This document shows, piece after piece, positions 8,422-12,813 of a stretch of DNA of 46,159 nucleotides. Under the pieces are notes generated by a model. The model was not told the DNA's origin and ran no database searches. It was given only the letters and a program-made list of their open reading frames with translations. Source of the stretch: Spirochaetes bacterium ADurb.Bin215. Its GTDB lineage: Bacteria; Spirochaetota; Spirochaetia; Treponematales; Treponemataceae. The stretch is taken from contig MWCL01000015.1 of NCBI GenBank assembly GCA_002070025.1, forward strand, positions 1 to 46,159, written 5' to 3'. The position numbers and the translations under genes were made by a program. Within the stretch, counting starts at the first letter, position 1, and every line of letters starts with the position of its first letter.

Positions 8422-8967
8422 TTATTGTCCGTCCCGCCAGGCGATGAGTGCCCGGCGGGCGGATTCAAAGGCGATGGGGGCGGTTTCAAAATCTGCCGGA
8501 GCCACAAGTTCCAGCGACGAAACCTCCCCCGCCTCCGCCGTAAATACGGACAGATCCCCGGAAAAAACCGCGCTGAAATACAAATCGCAGGTTTTATACC
8601 ACACGTCCCGGTAGGTGTAAGTATTTGGCCAACTTCCAACAAATTTGGTAGCAGTAACTGCCAGCCCCGTTTCTTCACGACACTCCCGCACGGCAGCGTC
8701 TTCCGCCCGCTCGTCCGGATCCACAAACCCGCCGGGAAGCGCGAGCAATCCCTTTGCCGGATCCCGGTTCCGCCTGAGCATGACAACGAATCCGTCATGC
8801 TCAATGATGACACTCGCGGAAGCGGCGACATTATGATAATAGACAAACCCGCAGGCGGGACATGCCCAGTATTTTCCGTCGTGATACGCGATACCCGGCT
8901 TTCCGCAGCGGGAACAGTAATCGATCGGTGCGGGATTCATGGCAGTATCCCCGGAGGGCGCACTCAT
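8422..8967 (-). CDS. Nudix hydrolase with N-terminal zinc ribbon
   Basis: A 181-residue Nudix protein. An N-terminal zinc ribbon (CSRCG about residues 18-22, CPACG about 36-40) precedes the Nudix domain, whose box is complete: GGFVDPDERAEDAAVRECREETGL-type spacing G-x5-E-x7-REC-x-EE-x-G from about residue 78. Such zinc-ribbon Nudix enzymes resemble NudC-like NADH/NAD-cap pyrophosphatases, but the NudC SQPWPFPxS signature is missing, so the substrate is undefined. The annotated ATG (8967) overlaps the stop of the ECF fusion by 4 bases; ATG 8940, with GGGGA upstream, is an alternative. It is the last gene of the pdxK-ECF operon. Confidence 0.85.
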   Translation of the reverse strand: MSAPSGDTAMNPAPIDYCSRCGKPGIAYHDGKYWACPACGFVYYHNVAASASVIIEHDGFVVMLRRNRDPAKGLLALPGGFVDPDERAEDAAVRECREETGLAVTATKFVGSWPNTYTYRDVWYKTCDLYFSAVFSGDLSVFTAEAGEVSSLELVAPADFETAPIAFESARRALIAWRDGQ

Positions 8968-11111
8968 ACACTACCCCGCCGGGAAATGATCGACAAGAAG
9001 ACGATTCCGGCCGCAAGCAGCAGGGAAAACGCAACAAGAACATGCTGGCGCAATCCGGATGTCCAGTAAAAATAGCGTGTGTGGTTTCCGCTGCCGTAAT
9101 AGCGCGCGGTTACCGCTTCGGCAAGGTGTTCTGCACGGGCCAGGGTGCGGATTACCAGAGGAACAAAAAGGCTGGCCATGGACCTGAGTCCGTGAAACCG
9201 GCCCCGGTTTTCGCTCCGGCCGGCTTTGCGGATAATTCGCGCCCGGGCAATCCTGCCCGCCTCGGTATAGAGGAGCGGAATAAAACGAAACACGATACCG
9301 GTAAGCAAGGAAAGATCCCGCACCGGTACCCGAAGCACGTTGAGGGGTTTGAGTAGATCCTCAACGCCGTACATGATTTCAGTATGACTCGTTATGAACA
9401 CAAACACGGAAAGCGGTATGAACAAGGCAATGAACCGCAACAAAAAAACCGGATTAACGCTCTGTCCCCGGAATACCGCATACTGCATCACTGCAATAAG
9501 CGCAATCCAGGGAAGAATTTTCAGCAATCCCCGGCCAAGCCGCACAAGCGGATAACGGGAACACAGAACCGTTATCAGTTCGAGAGCCAGCACGGCAAGC
9601 ATAACCGGAAGGGTTTCGGCGGCAAGAGCGGCAGTAATAGCCGAGATGGTGCACAGGTATTTACCCGCGGGCGACAGGCCGTGATAGACCGATGTGCCCT
9701 TTTCATAACTCCCCGTTTCTCCCTGTCGAAGCCGCTCTATGGTTTGCTGGTCCTTGTCCAGCTTCTTTTTGACGGCTGGTCGTACCCGGTACGAATCCGG
9801 AACCTGCAGGGTAATAACCTGATCGGCCAGACGGCATTCTTCTTCCCGATTGGTAGAAAAAATGACGGTCTTTCCCCGGGACGCGAGCGATACAATCAGC
9901 TCCAGAAGCTGGGCCCGGCTCCGGACATCGAGGGCCGACGAGGGTTCGTCCAGCAAGATAACCGGGGTATCAAGTGCGATGATGCCGGCAAGGGCGGCCT
10001 TTCGCCGCTCACCGCCGGAAAGTGAAAAGGTCTGCCGGTCCTTGAACTCGGCGAAGGGCAGCGACGCGGCGTCCATCGCGGAGGAAACTCGTTCAACGAG
10101 CGTCTTTCCGGAAAGCCCCGCGTTTCGCGGGCCGTACGCTACATCGTCGGCCACGAACTCGGCAAAGAGGCTGGCCTCGCTTTCCTGAACCGCGAGGGCG
10201 GATCCCGCGTCGGCCGCTCGGGTCACGGTTCCGCTGTCCGGAACGCGCAATCCGGCAAGAATTTCAAGAAGCGTTGATTTGCCCGAGCCGGATTCGCCGG
10301 TAATTGCGGTTACGCTCCCCCGGGGGAACCGGGCGGAAAAATTTTCCAGCGGTCCTTCGCAAAGATCGCGGCATTCGAGAATGATATCCTCCACAGTCCG
10401 GGACACGGGCTTTTCCGGGAACCGGGCAGATATTCCCCAGCGTTCCTGATCCGCACCGCTCACGGTATGAAGTTCGCGCGGCGTTCCGTCAAAGACAACC
10501 GCGCCGTCCTCCATGACCAGCACACGGCCGGCCCGGGCCGCTTCATCCCGGTCATGGGTAATATGAATGATGGTTCCGCCGGATTGGTGGCGGGTATCGA
10601 GATAGTCAAGCAATTCGGCGCGGACCACCGGGCTGAGCATGGACGTCGGCTCGTCGAGAACGAGAACCGCGCTTTCGAGCACATGCACACCGGCAAGCGC
10701 GAGCAGCTGCTTGTTCCCGGTCGAAAGCAGGGCGCTGGCCTCACCCGCGCGGGACGCGAGGCGAAAGGCATCAAGAGCCCGCGGTACCCGTTCCTTCATA
10801 ACGTCGCGGGGAACGGCGAGGTTCTCCAGCCCGAAGGCGGTATCGAGTTCTACCGTTTCCGCCACGATCTGGTCGCCGGGTGACTGGAAGACGAGCGCGG
10901 TGGGAACACCTCCCTCGTCGTCAATAGTGACCGTTCCGGCATCGGGCACGAGCAGGCCGGTGATGCAGCGGGCAAGCGTGCTCTTCCCCGATCCGTTAGC
11001 GCCAAGTACCGCAAGATATTCGCCGGTTCCAATCGAACAGGTTATACTCCGGAGCGCAGGAGAATCAGAGCCGGGATAGGTATAGGAGAGTCCCGTAATA
11101 CTGACGGACAT
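8964..11111 (-). CDS. ECF transporter energising module: ATPase-ATPase-EcfT fusion
   Basis: A 715-residue single chain with the full energy-coupling module for vitamin uptake. Domain order: ATPase 1 (residues ~1-235, Walker A GANGSGKST at 37-45, Walker B VLVLDEP, switch region ITHDRDEA); ATPase 2 (~243-440, Walker A GESGSGKST at 272-280, signature LSGGE at 364-368, Walker B ILLDEP); EcfT membrane domain (~478-715) with several helices and the two arginine motifs ARARIIRKAG and TARYYG that couple to the ATPases. ATPase 1 has LSTGNKQ where the LSGGQ signature is expected, and ATPase 2 has FSTNREE with Asn421 in place of the switch histidine. It lies 28 bases after pdxK, and the S component is divergent nearby. 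No strong ribosome-binding site is seen before ATG 11111. Confidence 0.88.
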   Translation of the reverse strand: MSVSITGLSYTYPGSDSPALRSITCSIGTGEYLAVLGANGSGKSTLARCITGLLVPDAGTVTIDDEGGVPTALVFQSPGDQIVAETVELDTAFGLENLAVPRDVMKERVPRALDAFRLASRAGEASALLSTGNKQLLALAGVHVLESAVLVLDEPTSMLSPVVRAELLDYLDTRHQSGGTIIHITHDRDEAARAGRVLVMEDGAVVFDGTPRELHTVSGADQERWGISARFPEKPVSRTVEDIILECRDLCEGPLENFSARFPRGSVTAITGESGSGKSTLLEILAGLRVPDSGTVTRAADAGSALAVQESEASLFAEFVADDVAYGPRNAGLSGKTLVERVSSAMDAASLPFAEFKDRQTFSLSGGERRKAALAGIIALDTPVILLDEPSSALDVRSRAQLLELIVSLASRGKTVIFSTNREEECRLADQVITLQVPDSYRVRPAVKKKLDKDQQTIERLRQGETGSYEKGTSVYHGLSPAGKYLCTISAITAALAAETLPVMLAVLALELITVLCSRYPLVRLGRGLLKILPWIALIAVMQYAVFRGQSVNPVFLLRFIALFIPLSVFVFITSHTEIMYGVEDLLKPLNVLRVPVRDLSLLTGIVFRFIPLLYTEAGRIARARIIRKAGRSENRGRFHGLRSMASLFVPLVIRTLARAEHLAEAVTARYYGSGNHTRYFYWTSGLRQHVLVAFSLLLAAGIVFLSIISRRGSV

Positions 11112-11139
11112 CAGCGGATTCCGGCGAACAAGGCCATCA

Positions 11140-11949
11140 TCAATTAAAGCCTTTCCGCCATCCGGAGGGATTACCGGGACCGACCCAGCGGTTGAGCGGG
11201 AAGCTGCCGCGGAGATTGTAGGTTACGAATTTTTTCGCCCGGCTCACCGCTTCATAGGGGTCAAGACCCAGCGCAAGCGCGGCGGTTACCGCGGCGGAAA
11301 GGGTGCAGCCGGCGCCGTGAACCCACTTGGTATCGATGAGGGCGCTTTCCACCTGGTTGAAATTTTTACCGTCGAAAAAAATGTCCACAGCGGTGGTCTG
11401 TCCGCTCAAGCGGGAGCCGCCCTTTATGAATACATTCCGCGCGCCCTTCTTATGGATTATTTTGGCGGCCTTTTTCATGTCTTCCAGGTTCGTCGGAGTT
11501 TCCACCCCGGCAAGTTGTCCCGCCTCAAAAAGATTCGGCGTAACCACGAGAGCGAGCGGCAGCAGTTTTTCTTCCACAAGCCGGTTCAATTCGGGATGCA
11601 GGGCTTCGCTCGCACCCTTGCAAACCATGACGGGGTCAAGCACGTAGCGATCGAGTTTTGCTTCTCGGATAAAGGTTTCAGCAAGCAGAACCGCCTGTTC
11701 TGAACCGAGCATACCGGTTTTCGCAGCGTCTACGCCAACTCCGTGGAAAATGGTGTGCAGCTGGGCACGGAGGACCGATTCATCAAGGGGATAAACCCCG
11801 TGAGACCACTCGTTATCGGGATCCATCGTCGCGATGAGGGTGACTGCCGCCATGCCGTATACACCGTATTCTTCAAATGTCTTGAGGTCGGCTTCCAGTC
11901 CGGCGCCGCCGGATGCATCGGAACCGGCAATTGTTGCTACTTTAACCAT
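11140..11949 (-). CDS. pdxK: Pyridoxine/pyridoxal kinase of the ThiD-like (PdxK) type
   Basis: A 269-residue ribokinase-fold kinase. It phosphorylates B6 vitamers, or hydroxymethylpyrimidine if it is a true ThiD. The start chosen is ATG 11949 (MVKVATIAGSD), with AAAGGAG 8-9 bases upstream; a longer frame upstream has no such signal. Visible motifs are GSDASGGAGLEADLKTF near the N-terminus, DPVMVCKG at ~115 and the anion-hole/catalytic HGAGCTLSAAV near 215. The DPVMVCKG form and the C-terminal SFPLNRWVGPGNPS closely recall the Bacillus subtilis PdxK-type enzyme more than classical ThiD, in line with the nearby vitamin transporter. First gene of the operon with the ECF fusion and Nudix hydrolase. 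Confidence 0.82.
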   Translation of the reverse strand: MVKVATIAGSDASGGAGLEADLKTFEEYGVYGMAAVTLIATMDPDNEWSHGVYPLDESVLRAQLHTIFHGVGVDAAKTGMLGSEQAVLLAETFIREAKLDRYVLDPVMVCKGASEALHPELNRLVEEKLLPLALVVTPNLFEAGQLAGVETPTNLEDMKKAAKIIHKKGARNVFIKGGSRLSGQTTAVDIFFDGKNFNQVESALIDTKWVHGAGCTLSAAVTAALALGLDPYEAVSRAKKFVTYNLRGSFPLNRWVGPGNPSGWRKGFN

Positions 11950-11972
11950 GTATAGAGCTCCTTTACCCCACA

Positions 11973-12002
11973 AGTATACTGAAATTCAAACGCCCTGAAC
12001 AA
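11973..12002 (-). promoter_or_regulatory. Predicted promoter of pdxK-ECF-nudix operon
   Basis: Reading the minus strand, TTGTTC (12002-11997) and TATACT (11978-11973) are 18 bases apart and lie 24 bases before the pdxK ATG, with AAAGGAG between. It is separate from, and divergent to, the repeat-bearing region of the S-component gene. Confidence 0.55.
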
Positions 12003-12024
12003 TAGCGGATCATTCACAAATCAG

Positions 12025-12107
12025 TTTATATTGACACTATACGGGCAAAGTGTCATCATAATTTTTATATTGACACTATACGGGCAAAGTGTCATCATAA
12101 TTTTTAT
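12025..12107. repeat. Tandem 39-bp repeat carrying a duplicated dyad (operator candidate)
   Basis: The sequence from 12025 to 12068 recurs identically from 12064 to 12107, a period of 39 bp and about 2.1 copies. Each copy contains TGACACT-N10-AGTGTCA, a 24-bp dyad (12032-12055 and 12071-12094). TTGACA at the left arm of each dyad also reads as a -35 box, with CATAAT 20 bases downstream (12057-12062 and 12096-12101), a long spacing that would suit a promoter needing an activator. The repeat ends 20 bases before the S-component start. No regulator is encoded beside it, and I cannot match the motif to a known regulator. Confidence 0.8.
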
Positions 12108-12127
12108 CTTGCCGTAAGGAGCGTCTC

Positions 12128-12736
12128 ATGGACAACAAAAAATCTTCTGTGATTCGAAAACTGGTTATCACCGCCGCGCTTGGATCGCTCACCATATTTC
12201 TCGGGATAACCCGTCTCGGTCTCATTCCCTGGGTATCCGGAGTTTCCATAACCATCATGCACATTCCTGCGATCATCGGAGCCATCCTTGAGGGATCCTT
12301 CGTTGGAGCCGGAATCGGCGCGATATTCGGTATCTTCAGCCTCTTCCAGGCAAACCAGACACCGGCCGGGTTTGACACCCTGTTCCGGAATCCGCTCGTT
12401 TCGGTACTGCCCCGGATTCTTTTCCCGGTGATTACCTGGGGTGTGTATTATCTCGTTTCCCGATGGAAAAAAATCCCGGCGGTCATTATCGCGTCAGTAA
12501 CCGGAACGATTATCCACACCGCGCTCGTCCTCGGCATGCTCGTGCTCACGAACGGCTCGGGGGTCCTCACCGGCGGTGCCGAGGGCGTTACCCTCTGGGC
12601 GGTACTCGGCGCGATATTCGTGGCCAACGGAATTCCGGAAGCGATCGCGGCCGGTGTACTCACAACGCTCGTGGTCGCGGCCCGGCTCGGCTTCTCGTCG
12701 TCCAGGCGAAAATCGAAACTTTCTTCTGAAGAATAA
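12128..12736 (+). CDS. ECF transporter substrate-binding (S) component, probably for vitamin B6
   Basis: A 202-residue membrane protein with about six hydrophobic helices, of the ECF S-component superfamily (PanT/PdxU-like group). The N-terminal part ITAALGSLTIFLGITRLGL carries the Ala-x-x-x-Ala-like helix-1 face that docks on EcfT, followed by the group's typical VSITIMHIPAIIGAILEG and NPLVSVLPRILFPV. S components bind the vitamin and use a shared ATPase/EcfT module; here such a module is encoded divergently with a B6-type kinase, so pyridoxine or pyridoxal is the likeliest substrate, with pantothenate or another vitamin possible. TAAGGAG precedes ATG 12128. Its transcription is probably controlled through the duplicated dyad just upstream. 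Confidence 0.82.
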   Translation: MDNKKSSVIRKLVITAALGSLTIFLGITRLGLIPWVSGVSITIMHIPAIIGAILEGSFVGAGIGAIFGIFSLFQANQTPAGFDTLFRNPLVSVLPRILFPVITWGVYYLVSRWKKIPAVIIASVTGTIIHTALVLGMLVLTNGSGVLTGGAEGVTLWAVLGAIFVANGIPEAIAAGVLTTLVVAARLGFSSSRRKSKLSSEE

Positions 12737-12738
12737 TG

Positions 12739-12774
12739 AAAAAGGCCGGTTCACATTGAACCGGCCTTTTTTTT
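12739..12774. terminator. Rho-independent terminator, probably bidirectional
   Basis: A perfect stem GGCCGGTTCA (12744-12753) / TGAACCGGCC (12757-12766) with a 3-base loop is flanked by AAAAA on the left and eight T on the right. It ends the S-component transcript and, read on the other strand, can also end htpG, whose stop lies 40 bases away. Confidence 0.9.
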
Positions 12775-12813
12775 CCTCTGCCTCGGTGACAGCGCCACCG
12801 CTGTCCCGACCTG

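Follow-up and report, generated by a model that had tools for sequence, protein, structure and literature searches.

The 39-bp tandem repeat upstream of the gene for an ECF transporter S-component (hereafter S) in Spirochaetes bacterium ADurb.Bin215 is probably the doubling of one promoter-operator, which is conserved before S and before separately located nadC and which, judged from sequence comparison, would be repressed by an NAD-responsive dimer or tetramer. The window, i.e., the whole stretch of DNA analysed, comprises 46,159 nucleotides (contig MWCL01000015.1). The genus comparison covered 12 genomes including the present one (G000), and the wider set consisted of 59 relatives. The features of the region are as follows.

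8422-8967, minus strand: Nudix hydrolase with a NUDIX domain only, without winged-helix domain
8964-11111, minus strand: fused ECF module, two ATPases and a CbiQ-type T component
11140-11946, minus strand: divergent ThiD/PdxK-like kinase, whose own promoter (TATACT) lies outside the repeat
12025-12068, plus strand: repeat copy 1, 44-bp exact direct repeat (unit 39 bp)
12031-12059, plus strand: promoter P1 (promoter scan), -35 TTGACA 12031-12036, 17 bp, -10 CATCAT 12054-12059
12032-12055, plus strand: predicted operator dyad, copy 1, conserved core TGACA-N14-TGTCA
12064-12107, plus strand: repeat copy 2, 44-bp exact direct repeat
12070-12098, plus strand: promoter P2 (promoter scan), -35 TTGACA 12070-12075, 17 bp, -10 CATCAT 12093-12098
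12071-12094, plus strand: predicted operator dyad, copy 2, conserved core TGACA-N14-TGTCA
12116-12121, plus strand: ribosome-binding site AAGGAG, read from sequence
12128-12736, plus strand: ECF transporter S-component (PF12822), predicted niacin or pantothenate uptake
12739-12771, scored on the minus strand: terminator-like hairpin between S and htpG

Conservation of the site

As the initial annotation had reported, the duplication is exact: TTTATATTGACACTATACGGGCAAAGTGTCATCATAATT is doubled in tandem and stands in the window as two identical copies, which share 44 bases at an offset of 39, and Tandem Repeats Finder outlined it at 12025-12111 (period 39, 2.2 copies, 97% matches). The exact dyad TGACACT-N10-AGTGTCA occurred in the window only at 12032-12055 and 12071-12094, and the genome search with this 24-bp dyad, which had been proposed for defining the regulon, gave no exact match beyond the two copies in 2.6 Mb. 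Chance matches to the dyad with up to three mismatches are not rare (1.09 on average, with four matches reached in 3 of 100 shuffles), thus the evidential weight lies with the exact copies and their conservation. Two separate observations were made elsewhere in the genome. A palindrome, TTTGACACAGTATACTATCCGTGTCAAAG, lies between GGDEF-type and CsoR-like genes named by eye (G000:C3:13190-13213, L003) and is a separate site, and the smpB region of contig C32 (L004) looks clostridial by eye and is likely contamination of the assembled genome.

TTGACA followed by 14 bases and TGTCA stands upstream of S in 11 of the 12 genus genomes, with CGTCA as the second arm in G002, G005 and G010, so that the suggestion of an operator before this gene is supported and the dyad is far from missing before S orthologues. 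The -10 box of the copy nearest to the S start codon is 29-51 bp away from it in all 11 site-bearing genus genomes. The longer string TTGACAC-N14-GTCATNAT was found with 0 mismatches in at least 9 of the 12 genomes, and among the matches listed it occurred only before S. The S gene of G006, closely behind a 5'-nucleotidase gene, lacks the site; in G007, the 5'-nucleotidase gene lying upstream has its stop codon within reach of the site, and the two overlap (L075, about 12541, minus strand). Brucepastera parasyntrophica (G028) carries the site about 270 bp upstream of S, and none of 67 more distant S homologues (L092-L158) has the dyad within 300 bases upstream.

In 15 aligned rows, both G000 copies counted, TTGACA, G22, C24, A25 and T29 were invariant and T23 was kept in 14; these sites are not independent because they come from related genomes, and ordinary promoter features (TTGACA, the TG, and A and T in the -10 box) account for part of their conservation. 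Column pairs 2-6/21-25 were complementary in 14, 14, 13, 14 and 11 of 14 sites, and the inner pairs in one to five, i.e., the symmetry ends after five base pairs. The 7-bp arms TGACACT/AGTGTCA described initially are exact in both copies, but their innermost CT/AG is not conserved over the 14 sites. As a control of the spacing, TGACA-Nn-TGTCA was counted over 185 kb of genus loci; it gave seven matches at n=14, against a simulated mean of 0.04, and none at n=8-13 or 15-21. Exact TTGACA-N14-TGTCA was found at 14 places in the 12 genomes, ten of them before S or nadC, while the reversed-pattern control gave three places.

Genes behind the site

The site is shared with the genes of NAD biosynthesis. 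The order S-nadC-nadA-nadB occurs in G001, G002, G005, G008 and G009, while in G000 (contig C35) and G010 (C90) nadC-nadA lies apart from S and a separate copy of the site precedes nadC, which is less exact in G010 (second arm TGCCA). In all seven genomes with nadA, a nadC-nadA cluster thus stands behind the site; in G000 nadB comes next, but not within the part of G010 that was read. The assignments of nadC, nadA and nadB in G000 and G008 have the support of NCBIfam, the G008 nadA being below the curated cut-off of TIGR00550 and the other nad genes passing the TIGR model. The second nadA of G001 (C4) had no site detectable with the site model. Five genus genomes lack nadA and retain S, and a PncB-like gene was found in 10 of the 12, including three of these five. 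A scan of the genus with the model, built from the S and nadC sites themselves and scoring 141 to 150 candidates per genome, added no member below an E-value of 0.02.

The composition of this putative regulon makes it likely that NAD biosynthesis and the S-component are controlled together, and not vitamin B6 metabolism. The link to B6 drawn earlier does not agree with the genes that would be co-regulated through the shared site, nadC, nadA and nadB; its sole hint was the ThiD/PdxK-like neighbour, which has its own promoter, and a B6 regulon was rejected. Beside S, thiD was not seen in G002, G003, G005, G008 and G009. The switch is probably not about vitamin B6. The block of ThiD-like kinase, fused ECF module and Nudix hydrolase (window 8422-11946) adjoins S in most of the genus.

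Substrate of the S-component

S was found in 42 of the 59 relatives and in every one of the 12 genus genomes. The protein scored 60.9 bits against PF12822, and it has the S-component domain and the fold of the PanT group: PanT chains (4rfs, 6zg3) were its only clear PDB sequence matches and also led the fold search (Foldseek 4rfs_S, E 2e-5; S model with mean pLDDT 76.7), at 22-25% identity in the structure alignment. Unlike PanT, the S-component of the genus travels with nadC-nadA-nadB. Gene context would make niacin or another NAD precursor the substrate, and to niacin we give about an even chance, while homology speaks for pantothenate, which we hold to be somewhat short of even. The absence of panC from 11 of the 12 genus genomes is in keeping with the predicted pantothenate transport, and an S homologue in Anaerolineae is followed by a type III pantothenate kinase gene (coaX).

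Fatty-acid genes

The rival that we take most seriously, unlikely as we consider it, is that the reader of the dyad is a lipid or acyl-CoA regulator which is widespread in Treponemataceae and which, in the present genus, has been co-opted for NAD and vitamin genes. Among the best 18 other loci of the family found with the NAD-site model, 12 precede fatty-acid or acyl-CoA genes (fabD in six, an AMP-dependent acyl-CoA ligase in five, a carboxyltransferase in one), which were named by eye; Pfam served to check one of the fabD and one of the ligase assignments. Most of these sites in other Treponemataceae (L201-L218) have identical arms and the same spacing, TTGACA-N14-TGTCA, but their E-values of 6e-4 to 0.03 per genome are weak, and the TTGACA arm is a -35 box, so that any overlapping repressor can end up with such an arm. 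Within the genus, the divergent region between fabH and an oxidoreductase gene carries TGACA-N13-TGTCA in 9 of 11 genomes and the N14 form in two (G007 was left out because of a contig end), although fabD of the genus was not among the matches of the site-model scan or of the exact TTGACA-N14-TGTCA search. A PanT-like S together with the missing panC would tie S to CoA and the acyl carrier protein. The like dyads before the fatty-acid genes and in the fabH region make a shared or related regulator possible. More specifically, a spirochaete repressor outside both tested NAD families might control fatty-acid genes across Treponemataceae and have been rewired here to NAD synthesis and precursor uptake, with its operator doubled in one species, a scenario that we regard as rather improbable.

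The fabH/ferredoxin-oxidoreductase divergent region (L239-L249) contains a conserved array of TGACA-N13/14-TGTCA, TTTGACATATTGACA, GCACATGTGC and TTTAGACACCGGTGGTCTAA-like elements, which looks like several operators.

Promoter architecture and the doubling

The promoter scan of 11900-12800 returned only P1 and P2, with TG preceding the -10 box; P2 ends 29 bp before the S start codon. Across the sites the consensus is CATNAT 17 bases after TTGACA with TG in front, and the dyad spans both the -35 and the -10 box. Since the -35, the TG and the 17-bp spacing fit sigma-70 rules, the conserved sequence could be nothing but a strong promoter with consensus -35 and extended -10, the dyad being its by-product. 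We find this improbable, as T23 and C24 (-13 and -12) are nearly invariant and the site is common to S and nadC and to almost nothing else. Our main argument concerns position -12, which is C in 15 of 15 aligned sites, though off-consensus, while the divergent thiD promoter TATA(C/A/T)T has T there in all seven genus genomes with thiD in the loci read (by eye, G028 outside the count). This suggests a reader of the site other than RNA polymerase.

Only G000 has the doubling, with a single copy before the S orthologue in 10 of the other 11 genus genomes and none in the remaining one; this speaks against the strong selection for two copies that had been considered. The doubling is probably recent, and it is a minor, lineage-specific change. 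The cooperativity suggested for the two copies is speculative; at an offset of 39 bp, or 3.7 helical turns, a position of both on one face is not favoured. It is very unlikely that only the single site is real and the second copy is an assembly error of this metagenome-assembled genome: the genome is in 189 contigs and no other genus genome has two copies, but the 39-bp unit twice (87 bp) fits one short read. A riboswitch or other RNA element was rejected, because Rfam gave no match anywhere in the window and the predicted folding of the second copy as RNA was no more stable than that of shuffled sequences (z -0.76).

In MerR-type promoters a spacer of 19-20 bp separates the -35 from the -10 box and contains the dyad. 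The annotated pairing of TTGACA with CATAAT at 20 bp does exist in G000, but CATCAT at 17 bp is the better -10, and CATAAT at 20 bp is found in G000 only: the other 11 S sites have varying hexamers there (CATAAA, TATCGA, TATGGC, GATGAG, etc.), whereas all of them start with CAT at N17. As the 17-bp spacing is conserved, the 20-bp one is not, and the dyad extends across the -35 as well as the -10 box, the proposed activator dependent on a stretched spacer, which would be of the MerR kind, hardly comes into consideration.

Candidate regulators

According to PMC7713382, NiaR (YrxA) is the niacin-responsive repressor of Firmicutes, Fusobacteria and Thermotogales; through a site on the promoter it controls the genes of nad biosynthesis together with a transporter for niacin (niaX, niaY or niaP). 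The putative spirochaete regulon resembles that description in having nadC, nadA and nadB among its predicted targets and the site on the promoter. The operator differs: the NiaR cores given there, TGT-N4-ACA (type I) and ACA-N5-TGT (type II), are both absent from all 14 sites with 5-bp flanks, which have TGACA-N14-TGTCA instead, and no type I boxes were found before the 67 distant S homologues. NiaR was rejected as the reader since the 59 relatives, the 12 genus genomes among them, gave no match to its 3H domain (PF02829) in a search that recovered it in the controls B. subtilis and T. maritima.

The Nudix-related NAD regulator NrtR controls nadA-nadB-nadC via a long palindrome, and its mycobacterial and streptococcal operators, as quoted in PMC6800001, differ from TGACA-N14-TGTCA. 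The winged-helix domain of NrtR (PF21906) was absent from 12 of 12 genus genomes and present in three of the 59 relatives, more distant ones, and NrtR was thus rejected. The Nudix hydrolase of the window, lacking this domain, is not NrtR.

No regulator gene is linked to the site, and the analysis yielded no other regulator. A LysR gene lies near nadC in G000 and G010 and was not seen beside the S-nadCAB operons; LysR sites have a different shape, and we consider its product a weak candidate for the reader. BirA is unlikely, because the birA promoter of G008 (L192) carries a BirA-like box of different sequence, GTTAACC-N13-GGTTAAC. Among the literature matches listed, we found no paper on a spirochaete regulon of such kind.

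Proposed mechanism and significance

Because the site covers the region from -35 to -10, a repressor is its natural reading. The sequences show the repeat, its conservation, the spacing and the site shared with nadC, and from them we infer repression, its ligand and the effect of two copies. When NAD or a precursor is plentiful, a loaded dimeric or tetrameric repressor would cover both promoter boxes and shut off NAD synthesis and vitamin uptake jointly, in the manner of NiaR in Firmicutes; at low cofactor levels RNA polymerase would gain the promoter. The second copy is likely to have arisen by a recent slippage-type duplication, after which promoter and operator are each present twice at a distance of 39 bp, and it probably tightens the switch or changes it only slightly.

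The interest of the finding rests on the regulon and its regulator rather than on the doubling. Our results point to an NAD and vitamin regulon in spirochaetes with an operator unlike those of both tested NAD regulators, NiaR and NrtR, and a 25-bp bait for finding the regulator is now at hand. With a PanT-like S-component brought into the orbit of NAD synthesis, the choice between niacin and pantothenate becomes a sharp, testable question.
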